DNA from: Diphasiastrum complanatum
Lineage: Eukaryota > Streptophyta > Lycopodiopsida > Lycopodiales > Lycopodiaceae
Reading direction: 5' to 3'
Assembly: GCA_029204225.1 (NCBI GenBank)
Contig: CM055097.1
Coordinates: forward strand, 8,263,411-8,327,410
DNA: 64,000 nucleotides
Numbering within the stretch: position 1 is the stretch's first letter; each line of letters opens with the position of its first letter. Below, in pieces: positions 4,589-57,775 of this stretch. The notes below the pieces were generated by a model. It did no database searches, was not told where the DNA came from, and saw nothing but the letters and a program-made list of their open reading frames with translations. The position numbers were made by a program, and so were the translations under genes.

Positions 4589-5497
<909 letters not shown>

Positions 5498-6678
5498 TGT
5501 TGGGTTGAAAGAGAGAGTGAGAGTGTGAGAAACTAAAATAGCTCGAAAAGAAACGAACACGAAAAGAAGCAAACTCGAAACTCGAACAAAAAGTGTTCGT
5601 GCGCAACGGAATGAGCTATATTACTCTTTCCCTAAGCATGACTACGCCTATCAGAAACGAACAGAATGTTAGAGATAGAAATCACAGTCGATTTGATTAC
5701 GTAGCCAAACATTAAGCAACAAAAACATCAGAAGGATAATTTGTCGTGAACAGCTAGACAAATTGTTAGTCGCGAATAATTCGTAAAGAGCTCAATTGAT
5801 AATCAGTTGCAAAAGACAAGACTAAATATTAGCCGCCAACAGCTAGTAGACTAATAATAATTCGCTAAGAACAAATTACCAGATTGAGCAACAAGAGAGT
5901 CAGATAGAATGTAGAAAAGCATAGCAATATTGACACAAATCTGAACGCTGAACAAAATAGAGTTGTTATCAGATTAAGTATAGATAAATATACATGTCAA
6001 TAATGTTGTGGAGCAAAAGACAATAGTGGATGAAACCACGTGCTCTACAAAGCTAATTCAAAAAGGAATGAACCTGTTACTAACAATACAAAAGAATCAA
6101 TGTGCGTGGGCATCTACTTCGTCTATGTTTGATAAGTTTCTAATGCTATTATTTTCACACACGTTCTTATCTCACATCTTCTCATATATATACACAATTT
6201 TATAGGTGTGCAGATGAAGAAAGTACAAAGTGGATGTGCTATCTGTAGGAGATCGTGGGTGGCTGCTGTCGTTGTCAAATCTGTTAGCACACTTGCATGG
6301 ATGAGCATGAGAATGCTGCAACGTCAACCTTTGCTGAAAGGAACGTTCGTGAAGATGCGAAAAATGTGACACTCTGACAAATGCCTTAGGATTTGATTTA
6401 CACGGTGTCTCCGCTTTCCCTAGGGCACCTTCGACATTTTTGTAAGGCAGTGTCGTCTTTTTAGCCTATCACAAATCATGTGTAAAAGCATAGTGTCGCG
6501 TTTTTCATCTTTTTCGCCTGTGGAAAATTACTTGTATTTATGCAGACATTCGAGTTTTTTGTCTATCTTATTTTACATGTAAATATGCAGACTGTGCGAC
6601 AACATGAGTAAAAAAATGCAGTATGAATGGAGGCAGATTAAAATAGGATTTAGGAGAGTATAGGAGATAAATCCAACA
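5498..6678 (-). repeat. Copia-1 3' LTR (minus orientation)
   Basis: On the plus strand the block runs from TGTTGGGTTG to AAATCCAACA, giving the TG...CA and TGTTGG/CCAACA inverted ends typical of LTRs, with a length of 1181 bp. Read on the minus strand it is preceded directly by a polypurine tract (6679-6688) and by copia pol, so it is the 3' LTR. No second copy is seen in the window, so the 5' LTR is lost or outside. No coding region is recognised inside it. Confidence 0.8.
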
Positions 6679-12437: not shown

Positions 12438-15400
12438 CTGCAAGAAAATTATGCAAGAATCAAGGTTCCAGCTCCATGAAGCTCCTCATGTTATGCACTA
12501 GCAAGTCTGGGGAAAAACCAAAACCAGACGTGTGGAAATATATTTGGGCCAAATGCCTATCGCAAAAGTCAGCATAAGCCGTGCTGGAGAACCTCACATA
12601 CCTGACCAAAACTTGTGGTTTTGCCAATTACTGGCTGACCGGGAGTCTTCTCTGTTTCATTTGCTGGTAGCTTGTCCCGCCACTCCATGAAGAAAGGGGA
12701 TTTCAGAACCCTCTGTGGGGCGGGCCATCGTGCACGTCCAAACAAATTAGTGTATTCAGTATCTGATTCTGAAGCCTCCACAATTTTGCTTTTGTACAAT
12801 GGATGTGCATAAGATTCAAATGTTGCTAAAAACCTGCCCAGTCAGTGTACTTCCATTATCAATAGTATATACTAACATCAATGAACAGCAAAAACTTGAC
12901 ATACTTGAAGTGAATATTTAAAGTGAATGAAAATTGACATAAAAGACTAGGGAAGAACACCTATTTGATAATTTTTGACTTGCCTTGTTCCAAGGCATAT
13001 GCCTCGAGCACCGAGGGCCAAGGCAGCCACATAGCCCCGTGCATCGGCAATTCCACCACAAGCTATAACTGGAATATTTGAACCTTGAATAGCATCTATC
13101 ACACTGGGAAGAAGAGACATGAGGCTGGTCTGCAAAGGACACCATGTCAATAGACTAAGCAACTGGGATTGTCAAAAAAAAAGTTATACTGTGTAGTAAG
13201 CCCTTGACTCTCCACACGCAAAAACATAAAGACAGAAAGATGGCACCAGACATGGGGGCTAAATGTGCGAGACCAGTCTGAGCAAATGCATCGCTAGTCT
13301 GCGATGTGGCTATGTCAGCAGGGCAACTTTTGCACCAAAAAAGTATAATACATTAACTTCCATGTAAGTCCTCTCATGTTTCCACTGAAACAAAAATCTT
13401 ACAATGGTGAGTGAATGGTCCTAATGACAATTGTCTGGATCCAGCAAACTGTTTTACTGCTTTAGTAGAAGTATGTGACATAAAAGGCTACCACCTTCCC
13501 ATATTAAATCTGTTACATCATGAAATATCTTAAAGGATGGTACAAAAAGAAAATAATCCTTATTATTTTTTAATGTAGCAGGCAAAAAGTTCACATGCAA
13601 ATACCGAAGATTTTTGTTTTGAAGAGGATTTTGTGGCATTAGAATCTAGGATTCTATTTGCTAATAACATAGAAAGAATTTAGAAGAAAGTTACTTTAGT
13701 ACCAAAAAGGTTGTCTGTTTGGCGTTGTATAGTGCAACTGACCTTAGTAAGCCAGTTACACCCAGGAGACCCCATTATCCATTATCAGAGTAGGGCGAGA
13801 GAGTTGACTGTGTGAAACCGGCTCACTAAAGTCAGTTCCATTGAGTAGTATAGATGTTGACTTTTTAAGCAAGGATCCAATTAGGTAGCAGATTGAAGCT
13901 TCATGATTACATTTGGACCACTCATTGCACAATAATAAGGCACATGGATGAATTCTTTCTGGTTACCTGGCTGCATATACACTAAGGAAAAGTCAAATAG
14001 TACTGATCTAGAAAAGCTAATGGCAAGCAAGATGAAACGATAGAGAGAATAATGTTGTTTTCAGTAATGGTCCATCTGCTAATAGTGTGCAATAACAGAT
14101 GCTTCTGTATGGAATAACATGCTTTCAAGAAATAGTGCCTTGAACATTCATGTCATTTACAAGCCAAATCCTTGGGCACAATCATTGGAGCGGTGTTAAA
14201 AGGTTCCATCACGCCTGGCAAGAGAGCCAAACACAACCAAGTGGAAGGCAATGAGACATGTGTCATGAATTATTGTACTCGGCCACACACACAGGTCGAC
14301 ATAAGCCTCCACTAAGAGAAGTACAATTATTTACCTCTCTAAAGATAATTGAGATGTCTATCCTCGCTGACTGTTTCAGTGCGCCAGTCTGCCAACAAAT
14401 GACTAGTTTGAATCATCACACAAAACATCTATACACCATTGACTTGACACATACATCCCTATTGTTGTTTACTCCAAAAATTTAGTTTTTATTCTTCACC
14501 CTCAAGATGATCCATTTCTCTATTCAAATGCACAAATCCAAAATGTGTGATGAACTTCATGCTAAGCTTCTATCACATGCATCTCATAAACTCCTGCTAA
14601 TCCTCATTGATCATTTAAATGCCAGTCTGCCATGAGTAACCTTCATCCTTGTGAGCAAATGTCATCCATTCCATCCACAAGGCCAAAGGCCCCATGAAGC
14701 CAGAAGCTTTGAGCAATTATGATTGGGTATGTCTTGTCTAAGTTGTATGGCACTGAATGAAAATTCAACCAAGTCATGTAGCTGAGAGGCAAGGGAATGT
14801 ATGCACTAGCCAGGATATTCTATATTTGACTGGATTTCACACGTTGGACCATCATTGAGGAAGCTGGATAGAGAAGAACGAGGGTATTCTACTGCGTCGT
14901 AAATTTCAATAAGGCATTTGACTCAATTCCATGTGATAGATTGATACAAAGACTTCAAGATTTGAACTTTCATCAGGATACCATGGTGGCAATGAAGGAA
15001 AATTTGGGCATGCTACTTAGAGTTTGCCACCTAAACATATCCCCACACCTATTGAGAATTTGCTCAAATCAGTATCATAAATGAAATGCCCGTAGCAAGG
15101 AACCCAAATTGGCACATACTACACATGAAGAAATCACAACACAAATTCCTATATCAGAGTAAGTACAAAAGTGGAAGAGACATGACTTAGCAAGACTCAC
15201 ATCCCATGCTGGTGGGGAAGGGGGGCCCAATTCACAGAAGCTCCCACCAATCAGACCTTGTGGATTGGGACCTATTTTTAGTTGGAGGCATTACCCAACT
15301 TACAAGCATTCATGATGTAATTTAGTTTGAGGCCTTTCCCAACTCACAAGCATTCATAATGGGACAATCATAAAACACATGGCAAGTGGCACAAATATAT

Positions 15401-18400
15401 ATGTACCCAGAAATTGACACATAGCCTACCACTGACCTAGCTATTTCCTGAATAGAACCTCAAGCTCCCTGAATACATTGTTCTCTGGTAGTTGGGCCCT
15501 ATCGAACCAGATCAGTTATGCCTTGGGTGCCTTGACAAGACATTATCACTACATAACTCTGGAGCAGAGAACGATGTGTCAGCTGAGAAGCAGCTCATGT
15601 ACCTGTTGAGAGCCTTACCCAGATTATTCCAGACAACAAGGACCCTGCTCGCGAAAGATCCTACCATGAACCTCAAAAAGGCGATTGTCGAGATTTGAGA
15701 GGAAGTTGAGGCCAGAGAACATCTTGATCACAAAGATGGTTTTGACCAAGCACTCTACGGCAAGAAAGAAAAATCCAAGACGCAATTTAAGCCTAAGAGG
15801 GAGTCCAATCAGAGGCAGGATCGTGACCAGCAAGCAGAGGGGACCAGCAAAGGCAACTGGAAGAGCAAAGGGAGGTCGAAACAACAAGGTGCAGACAAGA
15901 GGGCTTGTGTGAGATGCAGAAGAGATGAGCATACAGTAGATACCTGCTGGCTCAATCCCAAGATTGAGTATATCCATTGCCATAAGAAGGGTCACGCAGT
16001 CGTGGATTGCCGCCAGAACCTGAGAAACAAGTAAGCACAGAACAGACAGGAGAACAACAATAGTTCATCCTATGTGGAGGAGCCCGAGAGCTCGAAGATC
16101 GGCAAAGAAAGAACGAACAAAAACTGTTCGACCGCCTACATTTGTGAAGACGTGTGTGCAGCATCAACATCTGACACACATGACGTGATCCTAGATTCAA
16201 GAGCCACCTCACACTTCGTGACATCAAGATGAATCATGTCTGATTTCAGAAGTGCAGATCCCTCAAGATTCATAGTTCTTGGAGATGGATCTAGACATCA
16301 AGTGAACGGTATTAATTCACTATGGCTCAACACCAAGGGCAGAGACAGACGACTCGAAGACGTTTTGTTCGTGTCTACTCTGCAACAAGACTTGCTCTTT
16401 GTAGCAAGAATAGCAGATGCAGGGATGCGTGTGACGTTTTCAGATGAAGCATGTAATGTGATTGATGCCAGTACCAGTACTTTGATCGCTCAAGGCAGAA
16501 GGAAAGGGAACCTATATCATCTGAAGGTACGCCTACCTGCAGATCAGATGCATCAGACTCATGACGACTCGCCAGACACTCTGTGGCACAAAAGACTCTG
16601 CCACATGAACTCAATGGCACTTTACCAGGCAAGCCATCATGGAGCAATAACAGAGGTCAGCATCTCAAATGCAACCAGTTCGACCACCTGTGATGCATGT
16701 TTAAAGGGCAAGATGTCACGCACACCATTCGTCAAAGACTCCTACAGAACGACTAAGATTCTGGAGTTAGTGCATTCTGACATCTGTGAACCATTCAACG
16801 TGATCTCAGTAGGAGGCTCAAAGTATTATATAACTTCCATTGATGATTATAGAAAATTTGCTAGAGCGTATTTTATTCAGAATAAATCTGAACCACTTGA
16901 TAAATTCACAGAATATGTGAATTGGACTAAGAGATGTACAGGCAGCAAAGTGAAGCAGATCAGAACAGATCGAGGTGGCGAATATACAAGACTGTCAAAT
17001 GCAAATGGGTTTTCAAGCTCAAATATGGACCAGATGGAAATGTGACAAAATACAAGGCAAGACTGGTAGCCAAAGGTTTTTCTCAGAGATATGGTATTGA
17101 CTACTCTAAAACCTTCTCTCCTGTTGTCAAACATTCATCCCTACGTCTGTTATTTGCATATGCAGCAGCTTATGACCTCAAGATCCACATTGTGGACGAG
17201 AAGACAGCCTTCTTGCATGGCGAACTAGACGAAGAGGTCTACATGGATCAACCCCCAGGATATGTCTCAAATTCACTTCCTGACTATGCATGCAAAATGC
17301 CTAGAAGCATCTACGGTCTAAAACAATCAGCCCGACAATGGTACAAGATGAAAGATCAAGCCCAAAAATCATTAGGATTCAAGCCTCTGTTGGCTGATTC
17401 CAATGTATATGTCAGAGTTACAGATGGGCAGATCATTATTGTGGCTGTGTATGTGGAAGATACAAGAGGGACTATGTGTGATTCTAGCTTGTCTAGTTTC
17501 GTTCTTCTCTCTTTGCATCTTTTTTATGGAAAGCCGACTACAATGCCTCTCCACAAGGATGGTTTCCAGAGGCCATTATACTTGGTTATGGTGACCCTCT
17601 GCCACCACCTATCCCATTCATCCAGACAATTATCTGTAGCTTGAAGAAAGCTACTCAGGTTCATGATTTATTACAAGTACTGATCATGGTACATGCATGG
17701 CTGCTGAAAGCAATGACAAGGTTTTATGAATGGTTGATCTTATGGATGTATATGATTGGATTAAAACTTATTTGGAATGGGTACACAAAGGTAATCCACT
17801 TACCATTGTACTTTTCTGCACATACGTAACTACATGATAGATGCAGTTGTTAAATTTTCCAAAAATCCATCTACGAAGTTGCTTTCTTCTCTTGGTGATG
17901 CTGCTGCTATACGCATGATTGAGCACCTCATAAAGAAACCCAGCTTTTCCGCTAGGGCTGGAAGTAATTTTCTTGCAGGAGAGCGCAGTGGTCCCTTTAA
18001 TCTTAATACTCCGGGTACTGTTATGTCAAGTGGGGAAACGAGTCTGAACAAGAAGAGGAAATATGTTCCTTATAAGCAGCATAGCAGAGTAGAGGACAAG
18101 AAAGCTACAGAGATGACTGCAAAAGAGTTACCTATAAAGAAACTGAATTTCTATCAACATTGATTGCAGGTGGAGGACGAAAGGACTAGAAAGTTGATCT
18201 TGAGTTACGTTGTTCGTAGACTTGAGCTTAGAGTTACACGGACTTCTCCTAAATGTCTTTCGCATTTAAGTTATGTTAATCGTGTGTTTGAAAGCTTGAA
18301 TGTTCGTAACTTCTATAATGAATGTTTGAATGAATTACTAGAATCTGTTGATAATGCGTTTGAGGACATTACGTTTGGATGGGAACAATCAACATATTAA

Positions 18401-19433
18401 GGAATACTGGTACAAACCTTTTGATGTCTTTTGTAATTTCGATGTTGAAGCAATTGAACCTTGTCAATGTAGAGTTTTTAAGAGATTTATACCCTTTGTG
18501 TCGCAAAGCCATGAACATGTTCTTACTGTTGATTTCCATAAGATACGTCATAAGGAGCTTAGAAACGATTTTTCAAAAGGCTTCACATCCTTTTACGTCC
18601 CTCTAACATGAATGAAGTTCTGAACTATGGCATGTAGTAGATGAGCAAATGATTACCAAGCGGAACAGTTTACTCATTTCTAATTGTGTCATCATCCTGG
18701 AAAATAAGACCTAGAAACAAATCAGTGGCATTCCCATGGGGTTTGCTTGTTCACCAGTATGGTGCAACTGGTATCTCACATATTTTGAGATACAGTTCAT
18801 GAAATGGCTTTGTAAACTGAACGAATAGGACTGGATGAGAACGTTGAAGTACTCTTTCCAGTATATTGATGATCTTTGTTTCATTGATAACCTGGGTATA
18901 CAGAGGTTTTTAGATAAAAATCAACCCAGGGTGGACTCTAACCCATTTTGGATATACCCACTGGATTATCTTGAGATCGACCATGCCGAAGTGGAAACAC
19001 AAAAGGCAAATTTCTTAAATACTTCGATATCATATTCGCCAACACATGGGCGGTACACTGTAAAAAAATATGATAAAATAAAGGAATTACCTTTCCATGT
19101 CTACCATTTCATTCACTTGGCATCGTGCAGACCTACATATAACTCCTACAAAGTGATCACTTCACAACTGAACACCTTACTTTACTGCAATACTGAGTAT
19201 GAGTCATTTATAATGGAGCTTGAAAACCTGATGCAGGCATTTCAAAAGAATGGTTTTCTTCGTGACAAACTGAAGCAGGTAGTGATAAATTTTCTCACAC
19301 AATGATTTTCCGGGCATTAGATTTATATTACCCAAATATTTGGAAGAGAGAGAGAGAGAGAGAGAGAGGCTCACCTCTTGAAGGGTGGTAGATGCCCTTG
19401 ATGATGCTATGCCGGTTGCGGGTCGGACGGCGG

Positions 19434-19484
<51 letters not shown>

Positions 19485-21394
19485 GTACAGTTATTCTTGT
19501 TACATGTAAGGCTAACCAATGAATTGGACCCTAGTGTAATGAATTCATGACGACAATTAGCCCAAATGTAATATCGCTCTAACGATTCATAAAATCGGAA
19601 CGAGTACTACAGCTAGCATCATACATAGACCGGAGAATGAAGAGCTGCTGGACGTTTATTACCCTGAAGCATCGTAACAAAACTAAGGCTGACGGCACTT
19701 GTGATACGAATGGAATGACACGATATGACATTCCAAACGCTTCTATAGAGCACCAGTGTGGTTTTCGGGATATCATAGTGCTACAACACTGTCATATGCT
19801 CGTCGGTTTTTACTTTAGTCATAAAAACACACCCCACATGCATTGAGACCTGAATCTTCGGCATACATGAAGATAGAGTTTTGGCTATCTACCAACGCAT
19901 TGCTATCCAAGAATGGATCATTGCTGACCTGCCGCTACTACACCAGGATACAGCGAGGACCCACGTGCAAGGGAGGAGCGCTACACTACCACAAAAACGA
20001 CTTTCAGCCCGATAGAAGGCCAGCAGCCATCCAAAATGACTGTCCCACGAACATTCAAGCAGTTCACAGGGTAACAAACATCTATGCAACGCATTTTATT
20101 TCTTCCTTTGCTGTCTGCGACCTGCAGCAATGCTTAAATTGTTTCTAAAGCAGGCTGCGGCCTATTCCAGGGCAAAATGGCAGTTTTTTAGCTAGAACCC
20201 TTTGCCTACATTTGGTCTGCGACCTGCAGCAGATTATAAACAAGTTTCTAATGCCGGCAGCGGCCTATTCCAGGAGTAAATGCATGTTCTCTGACTGTGA
20301 TTCACTGCTACTTGGTAAGAATAACTTGCTTAGTTACTCTTTGCGACCTGGTACAGCTCTTTTCAATTCCGTTTTCTTCTATGACCTGTTCCACAAGTAA
20401 ATGATCGCTTTTAGGAATATACTTAGCTAATTTAACAAGTTTCTTTACTATCTAATAACGACTTGCACCCTGATACAAGCATCCTGAAATGCATTTTGCC
20501 TGCTTCGATCGATTCCACTTGATAATAGCTAATGGTTGATTGTATTCTGCTGCTTGAACATGCTTTGGTATTGCAGCAAGACATCGGATAAGATAATAAC
20601 GACCTAGTATCCAAGACAAGTACATACATACTGATCTGGTACGATGATGTACTGAACTTTATTTAAGCTTTTTGGTTGAAATATCCTCTATATTCTTCAT
20701 GCAACTAAAACTGAGTTACCTCTCAGAGGGTGAAACTTTTCACAATCTATTTATTTCAATGATGCTGTAAATGAAGAAGCTACTTTTTTAACGAGTTACA
20801 AGACACTAGTTAGCATGATATGGCAGTACTACTTACCGGGAAATGACGTCACTTCCTTTACATAAACCATCCGTGTCGTACCAGGAAGACTAACAGGATG
20901 GTGCAAATGCTTACCTTGTCTTTAGGTTTTTTTTTATTTCAACACAATACTTACACAAAAACGTTACTTTCATAGCGTGCGTAGGGTAAATTGGGCCAGT
21001 ATGGCAAGTGGCCTAGTAACCAACACGTTTTTACCATACCTTGCTCCACAATGATGTTTAAGGCTAATGAATGTATGAAAAAACACTACTGTTTGGATAC
21101 TTCTATTGCCCAATAATGTGTAAACTGTGCTCAGCAGGGATAACAACCGGATATCAGGAGAGACACTTGTCTTCTTCAAGACACTAACTTTGTGGTATGT
21201 TGTTGTGGGATGGTGGCAGGTAATAGCTGATCTCCTTTGAACGGTTTTCGTGTATGATACATTGTACTATAGATTGTTATATCGGCATTAAATTATACTA
21301 TGGTTAACTCTGATAGGAGGTAAAAAGTTAGGTCTTGTTTTTACAAGAGGGACTATATGAGATTCTAGCTTGTCTAGTTTCGTTCTTCTCTCTC

Positions 21395-21454
<60 letters not shown>

Positions 21455-24400
21455 GATTTGATCACAACTCTAACTAGTGATGGATTTCAAGTTTGTAGTT
21501 TGTCAGCGTATCTTGAAACAAAACAAGAACATTCTATTACACAACCAAAAGAACTGTCAAGAGAGGTTGTTGAACTGAGACAGCAGAAAGAAAAAGATGA
21601 TCCAAGGTGAAATATAAAAGCTGAAATTAGAAAGCATAATAGTAAAATTGTCACTCTGCTTATTTCACCCAAGGAAAATGGAATGACTTCAATAATGAGA
21701 TTTAAGTAGTAAACTTTTGTGGACATCAACACAAGATGGCCAATGAATGTTCAAGATGACCACCAACTCTTTGCAAGAGGCTTCATGCAAACTTATACTT
21801 CTTGGAGGACAATTTTACATTCAAATTTAGCATTCTAGAGCAAGATGCTGTAAACTTAAGTACCAAACTTAGATCTCCAAGGTTCTTCCAAAGAACAACA
21901 CTATACCTGACCCATAACATGCCCTCCTGCTTCTATCCCCTGAACCACAATCCCATCCACTCCTGCAGCTGCAGCCTTTTTCGCTTCTAAGACCGAGCCC
22001 ACCTGTACGATAAAGTACATAGAAAATGTTGATCAAAGATGTTGCAATGTAATTGGCACTGGTCACTAGGTAGTCTTTACAAACTCTGGGAAATACAAGC
22101 ATGTATAATCCTTTCTTTTTATTACTTACAGCAATGATAGGTCTGGGTGGGTTCACATTCCCATTTCATTCCCGTTCCCTGGCAACTATGCTCCTTGGTC
22201 ACAACACCAAATCAGAGTCTAATTTCCAAGTAAAATTTTTAATGTCTATTAGAGTCCCTCGTTAGCTGTGGAACGTGAAATGAGTGGGAGAGAAAGTGAA
22301 GATCTAGAAAAAGCTCTACAACAGATAAAAAGAAAGAAAGCAAGATGAGATTTTTTTTGCACTGATTAATTATATTTTGTACTGTATACATGAAATATGT
22401 TTATGATTATTGTTGATGCTTTGTGAGTGATTTTTCTAAGTCAAATGGTTCTAAGTTTTTTAGGAGCACAAGCACGTCACATACAATAGACTAGTTATAA
22501 CTTATGAGTAGTTAAGTGCATGAGGTGGACAAACACTTCTTTTCTTATGCATACGTCTTGAAACCTTCATTGAAGAGTCTAGTAGCTTTTGTAGATCATA
22601 TGAGGTCATTTACATTCTCCAACCCGGGGAAAAGCTACTATACTTTTGTTTTCTAGTATCATCACAAGTTGAGAGCTTCAACTCTCTAGTTTAATTAAGT
22701 GCTATGTTTTGCATTCTGTGCAATGATACTATCTCTTTTTTAGCTCTGATTTTTATGATCTATCATTTCTTTGTGATACCTAAGAGTGTATACTTCGTTA
22801 TAACACATTCATTGTGCCCTTTAATTACATGTTTTCAGAGCTTGAAAGGGTCTCTGTGTGCCCGGTTCTATCAGAGCCTTGAACAAGTTTCTATGCGCAC
22901 GATGATAGCTTGAACAACTTTCTGTGTGCCTGTGAATCATGCATGTAATTCCATGTTGGAATCTGCTTGTGATAGCATGTGTTTAAGCTGATTGCTTGGC
23001 AATTGTATCACTTTATGGCTCATTCCTTTGCTATCCAAATGCAGTATTGAAGTCACACTATAATAGTTGGTTTGTGGGAACGTTTACAGTCATCATACAG
23101 GTCGTCTCTATCCATTTCCTGACTCTCAAACTAGTAGCACTTGAGCACTCCTAGCGCCAAGATTGGCTTCTAAGCGGCTAGTTCCAGCTCTTCATAGCAC
23201 CTTGAAAGGGAGGAAATCTATATTGCACTTCAGTGATCAGACGTCGCTGTGGCTTTTGAGCAAATCTTTGGTTGTGTAAATCAATGCTTATTTCAGGCAC
23301 CTCTTGAGAAGTTTCAGCGAATTTTTAGCAGCCTACAACTTCAGTGGCAATTGGCAGAAGTCGGAGATTGTTGTTGGTACTATTTAGCAACTTTTTGACT
23401 AGCTGTTTAGCAGTTTACAACAGCCAGTCCCACAATGTGCAAATTATTGCACTACCATATCAGTAATTCTTGATTCAAAGCTGATGGGAAGCTGATGTAT
23501 GAAGAAAAGACAATCGACGTTTTTTCCAAAATGAGGAACTCTGATTGCTGGAGGGCTGTTTCGATAAAACAGCAATTAAGGTGGACACATCACTTGCCGC
23601 AGAGATGAAGATCTGGTAGACTTGATCATTTCCACTGGCACCCTGTTACACTGAAAAAATGTCATGTGTCCAGGTACGGCTGCAGCTATATGTACCAGGA
23701 GGGCAGCAGCCATGCTGCAGGTGACAGATGATGCTCTTACTCACAGCAATAGCTGCTAAATGCATTACTGCAGCGTGAATCAGGCATTTGCAAGAAGCAT
23801 GCAGCTTTGTGAGGCATCTTATCAACATCAAAGTGATATTTTTGCTTCTGCCACAATCTGAAATATGGGATTGTGTTTTTGTGACCTACAAAAGTAAGGA
23901 CTAGCACATTTTTAATGCTTGAAGCATAGGCCTGTCCAGAAGTTGTGTACATGGTTTACATATAACTGATCGTTGAATAGCTGATCAACAGCAGCCTACT
24001 TAACTGTTAGGCAGACACCCGCTTGTAGCACAACTACATTCCAGCAGATGGCAAATCAGCTTTGCAAGAGCAGTATGCCAGATTTGTGACGCTATCATAA
24101 CAGCCAAAGGCTCTGCATGAAGGCTCTAACCAGCTCCACAACATTGCAAACAAGCCCATGCAGACTAGCGCATATACTGGCACAGATCTAATCTCATGTA
24201 TGCATGCATATTTCAAGTATCCATGGCATGGATGAACACTGTTAGCGGTCCAATCAGCGACTTTCGCAATCCTTCTGTGTGTAGTCACAGCCACCTGGCG
24301 TCCCTTTTGCATTCTTGCTAACGGTTCCAATAAGTAACCATGTATTAGAGGCTTGAGACCTGATCTTTTGTGAACAAGTTACATGGGCAGGTCGCTTTGC

Positions 24401-54790: not shown

Positions 54791-55228
<438 letters not shown>

Positions 55229-57156: not shown

Positions 57157-57775
<619 letters not shown>

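Follow-up and report, generated by a model that had tools for sequence, protein, structure and literature searches.

What is the reverse transcriptase (RT) remnant that lies in a 64,000-nucleotide stretch of the Diphasiastrum complanatum genome (assembly GCA_029204225.1, contig CM055097.1, positions 8,263,411 to 8,327,410 of the forward strand; this whole stretch is called the window), and how is it related to the CT tracts around it? A sequence-only reading had placed at 17497-19305 a Penelope- or telomerase-like RT relic, lacking an endonuclease and sitting in a plant intron. The RT pieces do lie in that span, but the span is not one gene and the element continues to about 21401. In our reading, 17461-21401 holds the decayed and partly tandem remains of one copy of a Penelope-like retroelement (PLE) that is present in high copy number and has no recognizable endonuclease; we put the probability of this reading at roughly 0.7. 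What is new is a PLE with two open reading frames (ORFs) that is apparently endonuclease-less, interstitial, present in high copy number and joined to microsatellites, with the window copy as its debris.

The source genome of the window (1,744,706,496 bases in 5,176 contigs) was searched for relatives. A 158-residue piece of the RT (18829-19305) gave 3,070 first-look candidates, and all 150 of the best candidates that were scored proved to be matches, with E values from 5e-106 (self) to 2.9e-40. A piece of ORF1, the frame upstream of the RT, gave 4,021 candidates, and the 150 scored contained 152 matches. The RT belongs to a large, diverse repeat family. Its closest relatives among the matches scored are contig C321 and then C8:26498024 (72% amino acid identity); the remainder are 41-59% identical. 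Contig C321 begins inside the locus and is 98.9% identical to window 13441-19951 (6.5 kb), and it is probably the second, unmerged haplotype of the window locus. Several other listed matches also occur as near-identical pairs, like the window and C321.

A multi-copy RT family indicates a retroelement rather than a host gene. Decay of a host RT gene, either domesticated or derived from telomerase, would fit the finding that C321 alone is near-identical to the window, but the high copy number, the pseudo-long terminal repeats (pLTRs) with partial tandems, and the position of the sole Telomerase_RBD match elsewhere, at C5:19212968, make this explanation extremely improbable. The proposal of a domesticated gene is accordingly dropped; C321 is the sole near-identical match of a multi-copy family, and the search returned no single-copy conserved ortholog. 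The suggestion of a relic from a rarely described lineage is likewise contradicted by at least 149 further matches and 3,070 candidates. The copy count that had been proposed thus came out high, while the nearness to telomeres proposed with it showed no enrichment (see below).

A GIPMG motif B, a YxDD box and a PLE thumb mark RTs of the PLE/telomerase type. The motifs that had been picked out by eye are all present in the window: GIPMG at 18727, YIDD and a thumb-like segment within the open frame 18829-19305 (158 aa), and a CxC...HVLTVD block inside 18342-18611. From these motifs and the architecture, rather than from a tree, we infer that the element is a PLE. Matches to other RT classes were weak and confined to the RT core. 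The best E value against RVT_1 was 5e-6, phrog_1423 matched at 7e-5, and the group II intron RT family TIGR04416 of NCBIfam matched at 0.057 and 0.063 (12.5 and 12.4 bits, where the cut-off is 300). Group II, long interspersed nuclear element (LINE) and phage RT families were rejected on these values, and no best match to a group II intron, LINE or retron RT, the affinities that would have spoken against a Penelope-type RT, was obtained. The genome search for Telomerase_RBD (PF12009), in which 18 of 18 candidates were scored, gave the single match at C5 (E = 1e-32), which is not of the PLE family. Of the earlier Penelope/telomerase label, the Penelope part is kept on the strength of GIPMG, YxDD, thumb and pLTRs in partial tandem, and the telomerase relic is rejected. 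A PDB sequence search with the element proteins gave nothing credible, and no relatives were confirmed in IMG/VR or GTDB.

The anatomy of the unit was read from the open frames of seven copies (L039, L040, L041, L042, L075, L076 and L077). The order is a 5' region or pLTR, ORF1 of about 470 residues, ORF2 with the RT, a folded 3' untranslated region (UTR) and a (TC)n tract. ORF1 has 470 residues in L075 (653-2062) and 467 in L076 (4025-5425, minus strand). Its final residues and stop are near-identical in six of the copies; the ORF1 end of L042 lies outside the view. ORF2 of the open copies carries the CxC/HV block followed by the RT with motif A, GIPMG, YxDD and thumb, and in the L040 RT the first three of these RT motifs stand at residues 186, 278 and 323. 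ORF1 is a conserved protein without a match in Pfam, PHROGs, NCBIfam or PDB sequences. Both full-length versions were compared with Pfam at E up to 10, a search in which the HMMER filters discard most matches above 0.1; the L075 version was compared with PHROGs and NCBIfam at E up to 1; and the best E value against PDB sequences was 0.88, which is not credible. A Cys/His-rich block is strongly kept in ORF1 (HQARIWNWKRPFFKCRC.DKCKNN...WFDH.IWY), and no relative of it was found. Possibly the block is a novel domain that binds or cuts nucleic acids.

Measured against this unit, the window copy resolves into the following parts, all on the plus strand.

15576..17460 (start approximate), plus strand: truncated Copia element abutting the left end (Pfam gag_pre-integrs, 6.7e-11; RVT_2, 1.2e-47).
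17461..17520, plus strand: last 60 bases of the left pLTR, with a CT-rich run at its end just before ORF1 (95% direct repeat of 21342-21401; like the junction in other copies).
17557..17810, plus strand: ORF1 residues 3-87 (tblastn with the L076 and L075 ORF1, 1.3e-18 and 1.8e-17).
17804..18157, plus strand: ORF1 residues 359-466 to the conserved stop (tblastn, 3.6e-22; same end in L039, L040, L041, L075, L076 and L077).
18164..18611, plus strand: N-terminal part of ORF2 with CxC...HVxxxD, in two frames (open frames; 80% DNA match to L044).
18617..18626, plus strand: deletion junction at which about 850 bases of RT, including motif A, are gone (L044 3300-4153 falls between the flanking matches and includes stretches of RT that the window lacks).
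18619..19302, plus strand: RT from motif B (GIPMG) via YIDD to the thumb, open from 18829 (tblastn with the L040 RT, 8.2e-73; 150 genome matches, the best 150 of 3,070).
19303..19435, plus strand: 3' UTR with a GA run, and with two hairpins in related copies (alignment and folds).
19436..19482, plus strand: (TC)n tract closing the first unit (same place in 26 of 33 loci).
19483..21395, plus strand: 5' region and right pLTR of a second, 3'-truncated head-to-tail unit (ordered matches after (TC)n at C13:8320014-8321845; 30 of 40 scored ends correspond to base 21395).
21400..21449, plus strand: microsatellite of (CT)n at the 3' junction, taken to be the target (single-copy DNA follows).

Aligned to the L040 RT piece, the window RT sets in only at residue 242, beyond motif A. 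Since ORF1 residues 88-358 and the half of the RT with motif A are missing, the window copy is, to judge from its sequence, dead, and an active RT cannot be made from it.

Partial tandem copies with pLTRs, as in PLEs, are present in the family. In L040 a direct repeat (389-832 and 5072-5515, 95.7%) flanks the coding part, and L039 1-706, which precedes ORF1, corresponds to L041 5982-6678, which follows (TC)n (90.7%; 90.5% in a longer form of 1,709 bases). In 26 of 33 loci the (TC)n begins 128-154 bases past the RT frame. The 33 loci are the 30 best matches (window included) plus L039, L041 and L042, with L040 omitted as the same locus as L032, and they include three near-identical pairs (L012/L013, L016/L020 and L031/L032). 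The sequence after (TC)n is common to many copies and is therefore the 5' region of the next unit. At C13:8320014-8321845, behind a (TC)n tract, parts of window 19483-21395 recur in unchanged order with gaps between them. The post-tract DNA of L078 has no match in L039, L040 or L041; L039 is a 99% duplicate of this copy without 3.4 kb from just past the hairpin. At L014 the usual (TC)n is missing, but a 138-base tract stands more than 1 kb downstream.

Two hairpins precede (TC)n in 22 aligned 3' UTRs (23 were extracted and L020 was dropped as a near-duplicate; L009, L012, L032 and L040 were left out as copies). In the alignment 94.1% of cells are paired, compared with 38-65% for slid partners, a figure favored by the derivation of the structure from the same alignment that was scored. 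Pairs changed on both sides number 8 of 28. Shuffling gave 2.9, and none of 500 shuffles reached 8. Covariation support for the hairpins is modest. Nine loci and window 13400-22000 were compared with Rfam at E up to 5; no hammerhead family was among the matches, and a hammerhead ribozyme was rejected. Most of these Rfam matches are miRNA-like, lie on GA or CT runs and fall below gathering scores.

The right pLTR end was located with window 21150-21401 as query, and 40 of 983 candidates were scored. Thirty of these 40 matches stop at one base, equivalent to 21395, which corresponds at the left junction to 17514, immediately ahead of ORF1. Insertion 3' ends thus lie near the pLTR-ORF1 junction. 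Twenty of the 40 ends, taken mostly in listing order, were fetched and represent 15 distinct sites by their flanks. A (CT)5 or longer run is met no more than 27 bases from the pLTR anchor at 18 of the 20 ends, or 14 of the 15 distinct sites, with the reservation that the query itself ends CT-rich and may slightly favor CT-joined matches; such a run starts within 30 bases at 0.24% of window positions. The microsatellite insertion bias ascribed to Chlamys/Naiad PLEs is therefore seen in this family at 14 of 15 sites. CT tracts had been noted next to the element, and they are its own junctions. Beyond (CT)n, the flank was tested at three sites (L049, L057 and the window) and proved to be single copy at each.

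These junctions could also be explained by an RT that starts on a CU-rich template and itself adds or expands (CT)n, with insertion at breaks of any sequence. The template carries a CU run at both junctions, and tract size varies with the same flank (158 bases in L065, 68 in L066). However, the tract continues as a compound (CT)n(CA)n at 4 of the 15 distinct sites, like a ready-made compound microsatellite, and we regard RT-made tracts as somewhat unlikely. At the other end of the unit, a CT run followed by a stem-loop stands before ORF1 at five distinct places: L039 (the same place as L069), L078 (the same place as L070), L073/L074, L071/L072 and L076. The L076 stem keeps its form with different bases, as judged by eye from the folds.

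The absence of a GIY-YIG domain, claimed from the sequence alone, held up in the Pfam and profile comparisons. No Pfam family matched the five window pieces (17497-19302) at E up to 1, and no GIY-YIG domain was found by Pfam in the open frames of related copies, from which a divergent fold could escape. The positive control, a stand-alone GIY-YIG ORF from the same genome (L046:675-1067), was matched by the same model at 5.9e-13. Across the genome, the GIY-YIG search gave 471 candidates and 150 scored matches. Stand-alone GIY-YIG ORFs of about 120-200 residues lie within a repeat that spans 1 kb or more at L045 (C8), L046 (C11), L047 (C6) and L048 (C16), and 27 of the 150 scored matches are on the first 2.6 Mb of C8. 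Three of the GIY-YIG loci showed no Rfam match to rRNA near these ORFs.

These ORFs bear on whether the family is a Chlamys/Naiad-type PLE whose N-terminal GIY-YIG part went unrecognized or sits on a separate exon or transcript. Chlamys/Naiad elements, the subject of work by Craig et al. in 2021, reportedly have an N-terminal GIY-YIG, a CxC motif, pLTRs and a microsatellite bias, and occur in spike mosses. The CxC block in some copies, the microsatellite junctions and the pLTRs are traits reported for that clade, and the genome has many GIY-YIG ORFs. Against this explanation, ORF1 matched nothing in Pfam where the control ORF was readily found, and hhalign of ORF1 or RT with five GIY-YIG ORFs gave a probability of 0.1 on a scale of 100. 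No RT of the PLE family was present at the four GIY-YIG places fetched of the 150 (5.5-6.5 kb each), and none of the 150 GIY-YIG matches lay within 10 kb of the 150 RT matches (two lay within 30 kb). This last test is weak because both lists are partial and ORF1 matches themselves lie within 10 kb of an RT match in only 8 of 50 cases. A Chlamys/Naiad-type element is on balance unlikely. Supply of GIY-YIG in trans from the stand-alone ORFs was considered as well; no linkage was seen in the same weak test.

The copy is interstitial, as had been stated, and so are the best RT matches. One of 110 RT matches on contigs of known size lies within 1 Mb of a contig end (3.5 expected), and 12 lie within 5 Mb (17.6 expected). 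No telomere-type array was found in 90 loci and the window (332,690 bases), 12 of the 90 (L001-L008 and L045-L048) being outside the family. Telomere association was rejected on both counts.

A tentative mechanism can be built on an endonuclease-less, microsatellite-joined PLE. Transcription would start at a promoter, presumably in the 5' region, read across both ORFs, the 3' hairpins and (UC)n, and enter the next unit. The resulting RNA would be bound by the RT close to the junction of pLTR and ORF1. Either the CU run at this junction or the (UC)n behind the 3' hairpins may then pair with the exposed 3' end of the (GA)n strand of a microsatellite, and the paired (GA)n end would prime reverse transcription. 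Such pairing is the natural reading, given a CU run at the end of the element and a target of (CT)n sequence. Because no nuclease was found, an external or ORF1 source of the free DNA end was considered: it could come from a break, from a stalled fork at the microsatellite, from a nuclease in trans or from one hidden in ORF1. On the most far-reaching reading, the element would be a PLE whose endonuclease was lost and which moved away from chromosome ends, exchanging the telomere for dispersed (GA)n/(CT)n as primer: a telomerase-like enzyme extending internal microsatellite ends, with a new kind of ORF1 and apparently thousands of copies in a plant. We consider this scenario possible, with the odds somewhat against it.

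Several observations weigh against our reading of the element and its junctions. The RVT_1 match of the family RTs stays under the cut-off, in a comparison with profiles other than those of PLEs, and CxC, intact in the window, L039, L041 and L077, is changed in L040, L044 and L076. The (TC)n after the RT is absent in 7 of the 33 loci (L014, L025, L030, L035, L036, L038 and L039). For the 3' hairpins, partners slid by -3 give 7 pairs changed on both sides, and 13 such cells compared with 12. One of the 15 distinct sites (2 of the 20 ends) has no CT tract, and (CT)n might come from RT slippage rather than from the target. Ten upstream stretches were checked and (CT)n was present in one only. Flank searches at L049, L057 and the window found no empty site; each tested flank is single copy, which accounts for the lack of an empty paralog. 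In the window and its haplotype the CT-rich run is there but no stable stem follows it, and from L075 the CT run has been lost. The groups of L039 and L076 show the stem-loop, and the group of the 20 ends offers one ORF1 junction, that of the window and its haplotype, without a stem; the stem-loop is thus shown for the other groups. ORF1 could hide an endonuclease that has diverged beyond the reach of Pfam, and a nuclease acting in trans is possible in a genome rich in stand-alone GIY-YIG ORFs.

The surroundings of the window copy do not bear out a host gene intron. There are 56 window ORFs of at least 110 residues, and 20 were scanned besides the element. Nine of the 20 had Pfam matches at E up to 0.01, all of retrotransposon type, and no host-gene domain was found among the 20, a scan that small exons could escape. 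More Copia copies lie at about 51.9-54.7 kb and 62.5-64 kb. Two large inverted repeat pairs (2067-2899/3686-4423 and 38739-39704/50434-51399; 89-93% alike) lie among long terminal repeat retrotransposon fragments, and 14872-15084 has a weak RVT_1 match (E = 0.12), perhaps from a LINE. Compound (TC)n(TA)n microsatellites occupy 54980-55226 and 57159-57289, and about 0.2 kb separates the start of the first from a Copia fragment that ends before it and resembles the one ending at 17460.

If the reading is correct, an interstitial (CT)n lineage offers a test of how a telomerase-related RT without its own nuclease finds a primer, and the role of plant microsatellites as landing sites for PLEs becomes testable. 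The window element hints at intrachromosomal spread without a DNA-cutting domain of its own. The family may already be present, without a name, in a repeat library of D. complanatum. In the literature on clubmoss PLEs and microsatellite-joined PLEs, judged by titles and the beginnings of abstracts and with the Chlamys/Naiad paper outside the comparison, there is no report of the present element.

The family shares with Chlamys/Naiad, going by the traits reported for them, CxC before the RT in some copies, pLTRs and a microsatellite bias. It differs in that no GIY-YIG was found, a separate ORF1 precedes ORF2 and CxC is not in all copies. Coprina elements of fungi are endonuclease-lacking PLEs. 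To our knowledge, PLEs of this kind have been described mainly at telomeres. Two sources place endonuclease-deficient PLEs there (PMC3846280, PMC12477314): bdelloid PLEs have pLTRs, partial tandems and endonuclease-deficient members at telomeres (PMC3846280), and Selaginella PLEs are cited as telomere-associated, with telomere-associated elements called rare in plants (PMC12477314). Two others speak of PLEs in general terms (PMC11630846, PMC8848866). Athena of bdelloids and the Selaginella moellendorffii elements share with the present family a PLE-type RT without GIY-YIG. In contrast to them, the listed matches here are interstitial, without telomere-type arrays, with (CT)n-joined ends, high copy number and an ORF1 of unmatched kind. 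The Penelope families of Adineta vaga have pLTRs and partial tandems in common with the present element (PMC3846280), but carry an endonuclease and are low in copy number.

The closest mechanistic comparison is with Poseidon (PAc) of Anolis carolinensis. In vitro, the purified PAc protein starts reverse transcription internally from a tandem transcript, at a stem-loop near the pLTR-ORF junction, and the genomic copies end near that junction (PMC11167929). Both elements have partial tandems, pLTRs and ends near the pLTR-ORF junction (PMC11167929). PAc has a C-terminal GIY-YIG, a hammerhead ribozyme and AT-rich targets, and its start site lacks homology to the DNA that is cut (PMC11167929). The D. 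complanatum element differs from PAc in that no hammerhead was found, and in that its CT run meets a CT tract.

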